A DNA stretch of 50,289 nt from Candidatus Arthromitus sp. SFB-turkey (GTDB lineage Bacteria; Bacillota; Clostridia; Clostridiales; Clostridiaceae), in contig NZ_LXFF01000027.1 in assembly GCF_001655775.1 (NCBI RefSeq), positions 1-50,289 on the forward strand. The letters are read 5' to 3'. The translations under genes were made by a program, and so were the position numbers. This document shows positions 45,099-47,590 of this stretch, piece by piece; within the stretch, counting starts at the first letter, position 1, and each line of letters starts with the position of its first letter. Under the pieces are notes generated by a model, which was given only the letters and a program-made list of their open reading frames with translations, had not been told where the DNA came from and searched no databases.

Positions 45099-45109
45099 TG
45101 CCTGTTTTT
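45082..45109. terminator. Bidirectional terminator
   Basis: A 10-bp perfect stem (AAAAACAGGC/GCCTGTTTTT) ends the DUF2238-like gene and, on the other strand, the TetR gene. Confidence 0.88.
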
Positions 45110-45653
45110 ACTTTTTTTGGTAACTTAAAAACAAATTATATATAAACTCCAAATTATCCTTATCATTAAATTCATAAGAATTTGTAAAAAGTATTATTGA
45201 CATAAACAAGGATAATGCTATTCTTCTTCCTATGTTCTTATAATCATCGTTTATAAAATTTACAATATGTCTTGCTACATCATTTACTATTTTATCATAC
45301 AAATTATTTACGTTATTTGCTTTCTCAATTGGTATACTCTTAAATGTTAAACCAAATCCCTTATTGTTCCTAATATAATAATAAATCTCTTCTATAAATT
45401 CACCTAACACCTTCTTACGTTTCAGTGTTTTAAAAAACAAATTCCAACTATCACTTATAATTTCACAAAATATTTCTTCCTTATTTTCATAGTAATTATA
45501 AAAGGTTCCTACTGCCATTTTACATTCATAAGCAATAGTCTTTATATCAACCCCCGAGTAACCATTTACAAGAAATAAACTTTTAACTCTTTCATAAATT
45601 TCTTTTTTGTCGCACAAAACCGATTTAGGCATCCACATTTTGAAACTATTCAA
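45108..45653 (-). CDS. TetR family transcription regulator
   Basis: A 181-aa repressor with the N-terminal TetR helix-turn-helix (RVKSLFLVNGYSGVDIKTIAYECKMAVGTFYNYYENKEEIF) and a helical ligand/dimer domain. The start is uncertain: TTG at 45653 and ATG at 45638 are both in frame, and the only good ribosome site (GGAG) lies more than 20 bases upstream. It is divergent from the peroxiredoxin gene across a 389-bp gap, so it might control that gene, itself or a membrane protein nearby. The ligand is unknown. Confidence 0.85.
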   Translation of the reverse strand: MNSFKMWMPKSVLCDKKEIYERVKSLFLVNGYSGVDIKTIAYECKMAVGTFYNYYENKEEIFCEIISDSWNLFFKTLKRKKVLGEFIEEIYYYIRNNKGFGLTFKSIPIEKANNVNNLYDKIVNDVARHIVNFINDDYKNIGRRIALSLFMSIILFTNSYEFNDKDNLEFIYNLFLSYQKK

Positions 45654-46042
45654 ATTTAAAAATTTAAATAGCTATCTCCTTTCTCAAAAAATGAATTTAT
45701 CCTCAATTTCTTTACCTCAAAAAAATTATAACTTAATAAATATTAAATTAAAAAACATAATTTAATCTACATATTAAATTACAATCTGGTAAAAATAAAT
45801 CTCAAATACTATACTATTATATAATTATTTTAGTGTTTTAGAAATAACTTTACCAATTTTTAAAACTTTTAATACACTTAACATTTATACAATTTGTTAA
45901 ATTAACAAAATTTATAAAAATATATAAAGTTTTTAATAAATATCTTTTATATAAAGTTGAATATCTATTTCACTTATGATAAATTCAATTTGTACTTAAA
46001 GTACTTAAACTTTTTAAATTTATATTTAAAGGAGATATTTTT
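45654..46042. other. Long intergenic region upstream of the peroxiredoxin gene
   Basis: This 389-bp gap separates tetR and the selenoprotein gene. It contains no gene I can support. It does hold a perfect 8-1-8 palindrome TTTGTTAAATTAACAAA (45893-45909) and a tandem direct repeat GTACTTAAA (45992-46000 and 46001-46009) 34 bp before the start codon; both may be operators. No clean promoter is evident, though TTGAAT-N17-TAAATT near 45959-45988 is a weak candidate. Confidence 0.55.
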
Positions 46043-46576
46043 ATGGAAAGAATTGTTGGACTTAAAGCTCCTGATTTTAAAATGACTGCAATATCAGGAG
46101 ACGGTTCTAAAGAATTAACTGTTTCTTTAAAAGATTATTCTAGAAAATGGCTTGTATTATTTTTCTACCCACTAGACTTCACTTTTGTTTGACCTACTGA
46201 AATAAGAGCCTTCAGTGAAAGGTACGATGAAATTAAAGAATGTGGAGCTGAAGTTTTAGGAGTAAGTATAGACTCTCACTTTACTCACGGAGCTTGGATT
46301 AAAAATGGTCTTGGCGAATTAAAATTTCCACTAGCTTCTGACTTAACTCACGAAGTTTCTAAAAACTACGGAGTTTATATCGAAGATTTTGGAGCTGCTC
46401 AGAGAGGAATATTTATAATTGATGATGAATCTATCATAAGATATGTATCTATTTCAGATCTAGGCGCTGGTAGAGATGTTGACGCTGTTGTTAATATTTT
46501 AAAAGCTGCTCAACAAGCTAAAGCTGGAAAATTAGTTCCTGCTAACTGGAAAGAAGGAAATTCTTTCTTAAACTAA
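46043..46576 (+). CDS. Selenocysteine peroxiredoxin (TGA at codon 50)
   Basis: A 177-residue AhpC/Prx-family peroxidase that reduces hydrogen peroxide and organic hydroperoxides. The active site reads FYPLDFTFV-[TGA]-PTE; the TGA at 46190-46192 stands exactly where the peroxidatic Cys belongs, and the frame continues with 127 well-conserved codons ([48 protein letters not shown]). I therefore translate it as Sec. The usual resolving Cys before PANW is Val, leaving only one other Cys (in KECGAE), so it is not a typical 2-Cys enzyme. ATG behind AAAGGAGA. Codons and G+C suggest high expression. A nonsense mutation or sequencing error is the alternative, but the exact position argues against it. 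Confidence 0.88.
46193..46222 (+). promoter_or_regulatory. Candidate bacterial SECIS hairpin
   Basis: Directly after the TGA, CCT-ACTGAA pairs with TTCAGT-gaa-AGG around a nine-base loop ATAAGAGCC: a 6-bp perfect stem, a bulge and a 3-bp outer stem. Position and form suit the element that recruits SelB, although the loop is nearer the TGA than in E. coli fdhF. Confidence 0.5.
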
Positions 46577-46581
46577 AAAAC

Positions 46582-46616
46582 AAAAAAGAGATGAATTTTA
46601 AATTCATCTCTTTTTT
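46582..46616. terminator. Bidirectional terminator between peroxiredoxin and TtcA-like genes
   Basis: A long stem (AAAAAAGAGATGAAT with its complement) lies between the converging genes and is flanked by A- and T-runs. Confidence 0.9.
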
Positions 46617-46624
46617 TAAAATGT

Positions 46625-47491
46625 TTATTCATACTCATCTAAATAAGAAATTTTTTCTCCATCTTTTACCCAACCAAGTATACTATCCATATTTACATTT
46701 TGAGCCGCCGAAAAAATAGATTTATCTACATGTTTATAATTTTTCTTCATACTAGAAATTAAATCTTTTATTTCATATCTTTTATTTCCAATTCTTTTCG
46801 CCGCAACCATACAAGCACAATTTAAAGCTAATATACCAGAATTTTTTATAAATGTAATAATAGATTGCTCTTCTATAAAATACATCGGTCTTATAAGCTC
46901 TATATTATCAAAATTATCTGATCTAAGCTTTGGAAGCATTGTTTTAAAATTTCCTGAGTAAAAAACATTTAAAAGTGTTGTCTCAATTACATCATTAAAA
47001 TGATGCCCTAAAGCTAACTTATTACATCCAAGTTCTCTTGCTTTTGCATACAAAAAACCTCTCCTCATACGTGCACACATATAACATGGATACTCTCTAG
47101 CAATTTTATCTACAACTAAAAACACATCTGACTCAAATATTTTTACAGGTATATTCAAATGAGCACAATTATCCTCCAATAATTTACGTATATGTTTATG
47201 ATATCCTGGATCCATTGCAATAAATTCAAGTTCAAAATTATTTCTTCCATGTCTTTTTAACTCTTGAAATAATTTAGCAAGAAGAAGAGAATCTTTTCCA
47301 CCTGAAATAGCAATTCCAATTTTATCTCCATCATTAACTAAATTATATTCATTTATTGCTTTAGTAAATTTTGTCCAAATCCTCTTTCTATATTTTTTTA
47401 TTATACTATTTTCAATCTCTTCTAAAGATTTTCTTTCCCCTTCCGGAATATGAGATTCACAATGAGAAGCAATTGTATTTCTATCGCTCAT
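46625..47491 (-). CDS. TtcA-like tRNA thiolation PP-loop protein
   Basis: A PP-loop ATPase with SGGKDS (about residue 65-70 from the chosen start) and GHHFND, plus the CxxC pair in YPCYMCARMRRG and a third Cys region NCACMVAA, as in TtcA-type enzymes that carry an iron-sulfur cluster and thiolate tRNA (2-thiocytidine at position 32). I start it at the ATG at 47491, behind AAGGAG, giving 288 aa; an upstream start at 47521 lacks a site. It is convergent with the peroxiredoxin gene and divergent from speH. Confidence 0.85.
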   Translation of the reverse strand: MSDRNTIASHCESHIPEGERKSLEEIENSIIKKYRKRIWTKFTKAINEYNLVNDGDKIGIAISGGKDSLLLAKLFQELKRHGRNNFELEFIAMDPGYHKHIRKLLEDNCAHLNIPVKIFESDVFLVVDKIAREYPCYMCARMRRGFLYAKARELGCNKLALGHHFNDVIETTLLNVFYSGNFKTMLPKLRSDNFDNIELIRPMYFIEEQSIITFIKNSGILALNCACMVAAKRIGNKRYEIKDLISSMKKNYKHVDKSIFSAAQNVNMDSILGWVKDGEKISYLDEYE

Positions 47492-47590
47492 AATAAATTT
47501 CTCCTTATGTGGAATACACAAAATAATTTAAATTTATATATTAAAAAATAAATTTATTAATTTTAATTTTAAATACTTTATTTTTTTATA

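Follow-up and report, generated by a model that had tools for sequence, protein, structure and literature searches.

The peroxiredoxin locus of turkey SFB

The window analysed here is the whole 50,289-nucleotide stretch of contig NZ_LXFF01000027.1 from Candidatus Arthromitus sp. SFB-turkey (a segmented filamentous bacterium, SFB, of turkeys; below, turkey SFB). Near its end lies a frame for a peroxiredoxin of the AhpC/Prx1 type, which runs from an ATG start to a TAA end with a single internal TGA at codon 50 (Table 1). The gene is flanked by a divergent TetR-family regulator, which is also kept by rat SFB, a genome without the peroxiredoxin gene, and by a convergent gene for a TtcA-like PP-loop protein that scores 204 bits on the TtcA model, below the cut-off of 272. 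Between the peroxiredoxin gene and its convergent neighbour, one terminator-like stem was found, against 0.2 expected. Further downstream, a beta-propeller protein (PF09826; 49130-50146) reaches only 55-58% identity between SFB species, well under the 80-93% of the nearby speD and speE, and thus appears to be fast evolving.

Table 1. Features of the peroxiredoxin locus and related genes elsewhere in SFB genomes. Positions are those of the window unless a locus is named.
Feature	Position	Strand	Remarks
TetR-family regulator, divergent neighbour	45108..45653	-	PF00440; present in rat SFB, 73% identical
Ribosome-binding site AGGAGA	46030..46035	+	by eye; kept in sister species
Peroxiredoxin gene, AhpC/Prx1 type	46043..46576	+	177 residues with TGA read as Sec at codon 50
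In-frame UGA at peroxidatic position, taken as selenocysteine	46190..46192	+	basis: homologue codons and sister species
Competing minimum-energy hairpin	46192..46223	+	pairs the A of UGA; apical loop only 9 nt past UGA
Candidate SECIS hairpin GCCUU-CAGUGA-AAGGU	46208..46223	+	start 15 nt, loop 20 nt past UGA
Cys67, sole cysteine besides Sec50	46241..46243	+	kept in both SFB proteins
Val165 codon in place of resolving Cys (LCPxxW)	46535..46537	+	Val in both SFB proteins
Terminator-like stem between peroxiredoxin gene and convergent neighbour	46582..46616	called on minus strand	16 pairs, 3 G-C
TtcA-like PP-loop protein, convergent neighbour	46625..47521	-	PF01171 above cut-off; present in rat SFB
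SelD gene with UGA	L125 1489-2517		
SelD gene with UGA	L144 from about 2476		
SelD gene with UGA	L145 3251-2226	-	
NCQKC thioredoxin, turkey SFB	L219 1480-1812 (G000:C32)		
NCQKC thioredoxin, G002	L218 1447-1761 (G002:C87)		

When the TGA is translated as a residue, a profile search assigns the protein to PF00578 (AhpC-TSA) with 136.6 bits (cut-off 26). The motif around codon 50, PLDFTFV-U-PTE, fits the family pattern PxxxTxx(C/U), and the AlphaFold model has a mean pLDDT of 90.2. Among the matches listed, the PDB relatives found by sequence are peroxiredoxins and AhpC, and the best folds are those of peroxiredoxins 1-4 and of their counterparts in plants and protists. The initial annotation had placed the TGA exactly at the active-site cysteine codon of an otherwise intact family motif, and the profile match together with a frame that continues to the TAA bears this out. 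It had also expected ordinary gene calling to split or miss the gene; indeed, plain ORF calling returns no ORF of at least 80 aa between 45653 and 46625. Five TGA-interrupted frames in the window run on for at least 40 codons both before and after the TGA, and the peroxiredoxin frame alone is protein-like; the other four were rejected by eye. A scan of the window against Rfam gave no match at gathering scores.

The alignment of homologues at codon 50, which the same annotation had suggested, covered 182 loci, reduced to 175 distinct ones after seven duplicates were dropped. The cysteine forms are a sample of the listed matches (one homologue list comprised the best 80 of 558 loci), while the selenocysteine forms comprise every listed TGA match except weak ones, with E-values of about 1e-12 or worse and in some cases further stops. 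The codon at the peroxidatic place is TGC in 83 homologues, TGT in 55 and TGA in 37, with no other codon seen; cysteine is thus encoded in 138 of the 175.

Reading of the TGA codon

The turkey SFB genome (1,631,326 bases in 41 contigs) was searched for the selenocysteine machinery, whose complete absence the initial annotation had named as evidence against its reading. SelA (598 bits, cut-off 268), SelB (348 bits, cut-off 242) and SelD (389 bits, cut-off 125) were all found by profile search, with the order selD-selA-selB and the SelA gene immediately 5' of the SelB gene, together with a tRNA-Sec (Rfam score 65, cut-off 47) that carries the anticodon TCA according to ARAGORN. SelB scores above cut-off in each of the three SFB genomes considered, namely turkey SFB, rat SFB and G002, a separately assembled SFB species whose genome is 94% complete and which is referred to below as the sister species. 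In each of the three, the SelD gene is itself interrupted by UGA at its own catalytic selenocysteine site and is followed by a hairpin of the form AGAACC-NNN-GGUUCU (6 bp, -5.0 kcal/mol) whose G-rich triloop lies 17 nt past the UGA. Taken together, the sel genes, the tRNA-Sec and the UGA-containing SelD indicate that the SFB genus is equipped to decode UGA as selenocysteine. The tRNA 2-selenouridine synthase SelU is also above cut-off in 3/3 SFB genomes (L212, L213, L214), which suggests that selenium is used for tRNA selenouridine as well.

Judged from gene content and sequence comparison, the TGA at codon 50 is, by a wide margin, best read as selenocysteine, and three other readings of the codon have to be set against it. 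If the TGA were a plain nonsense mutation, it would act as a stop in a decaying gene. The lack of a strong canonical SECIS would agree with such decay, as would the situation in rat SFB, where the neighbours stand in the same order (ttcA-like 85%, tetR 73%, speD 92%, speE 80% and glnS 85% identical) and the peroxiredoxin has no counterpart between ttcA and tetR. However, the gene and its TGA recur at the corresponding place in the sister species (JAGHEJ010000051.1; protein 94% identical), the frame is intact to the C-terminus in a genome with a full selenocysteine system, and the two species differ after the TGA by only 4 nonsynonymous against 16 synonymous changes. The resulting dN/dS of 0.065 places the frame beyond the TGA under strong purifying selection (before the TGA, with 6 nonsynonymous and 4 synonymous differences, dN/dS is higher, at 0.42), and decay of the gene is considered very unlikely.

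The occurrence of the codon in a second, independent assembly also argues against a base-call or assembly error; although the turkey SFB assembly UMNCA01 is a draft from a metagenome, its average coverage is 100x (PMC6979296), and the chance of such an error is close to nil. Genome-wide recoding of TGA as tryptophan or another amino acid appears just as improbable. It might be suspected from the fact that TGA terminates only one of the 19 long ORFs of the window, but TGA is found inside none of them and their tryptophans are encoded by 54 TGG codons, in agreement with the earlier statement that TGA is a stop elsewhere and Trp is TGG. Moreover, the tRNA-Sec has the anticodon TCA, and the position holds Cys or TGA in 175/175 homologues.

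According to PMC13188914, bacterial SECIS elements (bSECIS) follow a set of rules: the loop is small, has a G near its start and lies 16-37 nt past the UGA, and the energy is <=-7.5 kcal/mol. The candidate hairpin GCCUU-CAGUGA-AAGGU fits the spacing (20-21 nt) and offers a G as the second base of an AGU loop or the third of CAGUGA. Its energy of -1.5 to -4.1 kcal/mol falls short of the rule, as does that of the isolated SelD hairpins of SFB; the value of -4.1 is for a fold that leaves out the first 10-15 nt, among them the UGA. At the one of four cut points that was compared with synonymous recodings, 2.3% of these are as stable. All 16 bases are identical in the sister species, and the hairpin is written in codons that the 19 window ORFs seldom use for their residue (GCC for 3% of alanines, TTC for 4% of phenylalanines, AGG for 14% of arginines), with GCC and AGG occurring nowhere else in the peroxiredoxin gene. 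Codons 51-64 carry 1 synonymous change over 8.8 sites and the codons beyond them 15 over 77.7, numbers too small to inform.

The minimum-energy structure of the region is a competing hairpin of -7.8 kcal/mol, whose stability is equalled by 5/200 dinucleotide shuffles of 41 nt, by 8/200 of 51 nt and by 2.4% of synonymous recodings; one of its pairs is disrupted in the sister species. The whole fold of a 74-nt stretch is unremarkable (86/200 dinucleotide shuffles as stable). Given the pairing with the UGA itself and the short distance to the apical loop, a ribosome positioned at the UGA would be expected to open this competing hairpin. A bSECIS scan with the energy rule set aside gave hairpins of <=-4 kcal/mol in 31 of 37 selenocysteine genes and 46 of 138 cysteine genes. 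The SFB genes, at -1.5 kcal/mol, are joint 35th among the 37 and belong to the six exceptions; this energy is reached by 76 of the 138 cysteine homologues, so the scan does not distinguish the SFB hairpin from chance. Another exception is L160 (G427), a selenocysteine peroxiredoxin that has the resolving cysteine and lacks a good hairpin in the scan. With moderate confidence, GCCUU-CAGUGA-AAGGU is the likely SECIS and probably the hairpin that acts.

The resolving position among homologues

Two sequences of the SFB selenocysteine type were found, in turkey SFB and in the sister species, where it is the sole match; turkey SFB has an additional Cys-type relative on a different contig (41% identical), and the sole match in rat SFB is a cysteine form (37% identical). 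Both selenocysteine proteins have lost the resolving cysteine. Across the homologue set, this residue is present in 116 of the 138 cysteine forms and in 12 of the 37 selenocysteine forms. The 22 cysteine forms without it all carry the motif TPVCTTE and make up a clade of their own together with one selenocysteine row, which is among the 25 selenocysteine forms that have lost the residue. Members of this clade are presumably Prx6-like 1-Cys peroxiredoxins. Outside the clade, the resolving cysteine is kept in 116/116 cysteine forms and in 12/36 selenocysteine forms, leaving 24 without it.

The tree was built from 123 of the 175 rows, 52 cysteine rows with a resolving cysteine being left out, and its bootstrap was not fully settled. 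The SFB pair falls into a group with 46 cysteine rows and three other selenocysteine rows, all of which have the resolving cysteine (support 100/99). The remaining 22 selenocysteine rows that lack the residue are divided between two clades. The larger has 19 rows, 17 of them lacking it, and the three rows tested from it all exceed the PrxU cut-off, at 297-361 bits; the smaller has five rows, and the single row tested is below that cut-off. By the AU test, a tree that unites the 24 rows in one clade is rejected (p 7.7e-7; these rows were grouped only once the tree had been inspected, and long branches are present), which indicates that the loss probably arose more than once. An independent-pairs sign test of selenocysteine against loss of the resolving cysteine found only two supported pairs (median p 1), and the correlation is therefore not statistically established on the tree; it is best described as a pattern in the sequences and not as a proven rule. 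Should the resolving cysteine be lost only in selenocysteine forms, this would bear on the question of why peroxidases use selenium.

Proposed mechanism and relation to known peroxiredoxins

The preferred reading of the locus, to which a probability of roughly 0.88 is assigned, is that its product is a selenocysteine peroxiredoxin lacking the resolving cysteine, whose UGA is decoded by the SelA/B/C/D system with the aid of a weak hairpin and which works as a 1-Sec peroxidase reduced directly by thioredoxin. The SelA/B/C/D system would insert selenocysteine at codon 50, guided by the weak downstream hairpin, which would form while the ribosome pauses at the UGA. Sec50 would then attack hydrogen peroxide or an organic hydroperoxide, presumably assisted, in line with peroxiredoxin chemistry, by Pro43, Thr47 and Arg121, which are invariant in a 27-row alignment, and would be converted into a selenenic acid. 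Since the resolving cysteine is gone and Cys67 is apparently distant, this selenenic acid would be reduced from outside by a thiol, most likely that of thioredoxin.

The remaining alternative concerns Cys67, which might have replaced the lost residue, so that a Sec50-Cys67 selenenylsulfide would make the protein a two-residue peroxiredoxin. That Cys67 is the only other cysteine and is present in both SFB proteins speaks for this possibility. In the model, however, Sec50 begins the helix 49-59 and Cys67 stands just past the helix 61-66, an arrangement that, as judged from secondary structure only, probably keeps the two residues far apart; a cysteine at or beside position 67 also occurs in some cysteine homologues with a normal resolving cysteine. 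Formation of the selenenylsulfide is thus regarded as unlikely.

As for the external reductant of a 1-Sec enzyme, gene content and the analogy with PrxU make thioredoxin the most likely candidate. The turkey SFB genome has two thioredoxin matches as well as a thioredoxin reductase that scores 366 bits (cut-off 343), and PrxU is named a thioredoxin-dependent peroxiredoxin by NCBIfam. Glutaredoxin was set aside as a reductant, as PF00462 had no match in the three SFB genomes searched; SFB are credited with a glutaredoxin-related protein in PMC13153320. In both SFB species with the selenocysteine peroxiredoxin, the thioredoxin reductase gene is immediately followed by that of a second thioredoxin, whose active site reads NCQKC and which scores 105 bits on the clostridial TrxA model (cut-off 140). 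Rat SFB has one thioredoxin match only. Across these three genomes, the pairing of the NCQKC thioredoxin with the reductase appears to go with the selenocysteine peroxiredoxin, which is suggestive at most.

SFB are much-studied gut symbionts that shape immunity. A selenium-dependent peroxidase missed by gene calling would link the selenium supply of the host to the oxidant defence of these bacteria. Word searches for 'seleno-' and 'selenium' in the main text (supplements excluded) of the SFB genome papers PMC9482736, PMC12942676, PMC7474095 and PMC13153320 gave no occurrence, and among the papers listed by a literature search, whose scope excluded most subscription papers, none had a title joining SFB with selenoproteins. 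Selenocysteine peroxiredoxins as such are already known and are common in Clostridia, and loss of the resolving cysteine has already been seen in PrxU. Peroxiredoxins with a TxxU motif are described as an established family in PMC13188914, Table 1 of PMC1794560 gives 12 for Prx, and PMC3091704 places a selenocysteine peroxiredoxin in Clostridium sticklandii as well.

A broader proposal can be put forward tentatively, as one that is quite possible but not to be counted on. Selenocysteine may free enzymes of the AhpC/Prx1 type from the resolving cysteine, because thioredoxin would itself reduce the selenenic acid, after the fashion of glutathione peroxidases, and the cysteine would have been lost repeatedly, in PrxU, in a further clade and in SFB. 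Turkey SFB and its sister species would then represent a separate and recent case, tied to a life attached to the epithelium, and their minimal SECIS would fold only once the ribosome opens the stronger hairpin.

Among the known systems, the Prx6-like 1-Cys enzymes resemble the SFB protein in having no resolving cysteine at the aligned column, but differ from it in their TPVCTTE motif, their length (217-279 residues as extracted) and their separate clade. On the model for typical 2-Cys AhpC (TIGR03137), the SFB protein reaches 157.7 bits against a cut-off of 272, and it has Val165 instead of the resolving cysteine. PrxU (NF040737), which was reportedly first described by Soehling et al. in 2001 from Eubacterium acidaminophilum, is the type to which the initial annotation had likened the SFB protein. 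The two have in common a selenocysteine as the peroxidatic residue, and 17 of the 19 rows of the PrxU clade are likewise without a resolving cysteine. The assignment to the PrxU type itself has to be given up, however, as the SFB protein, at 143.9 bits, stays far below the PrxU cut-off (270) and lies in a different tree group, with cysteine enzymes of the AhpC/Prx1 type. Within that group, L030, L071 (Candidatus Petromonas tenebris) and L121 (Clostridiaceae bacterium M8S5) have the same TGA codon, are 51-54% identical to the SFB protein and possess SECIS-like hairpins 16 nt past the UGA (-4.0 to -7.4 kcal/mol); unlike SFB, they keep the resolving cysteine. The nearest sampled cysteine enzymes of the AhpC/Prx1 type, mostly from Clostridia and Bacilli, are 52-60% identical to the SFB protein and share its fold, motif, length and tree group; where those examined have a peroxidatic and a resolving cysteine, the SFB protein would have selenocysteine and has valine, respectively.
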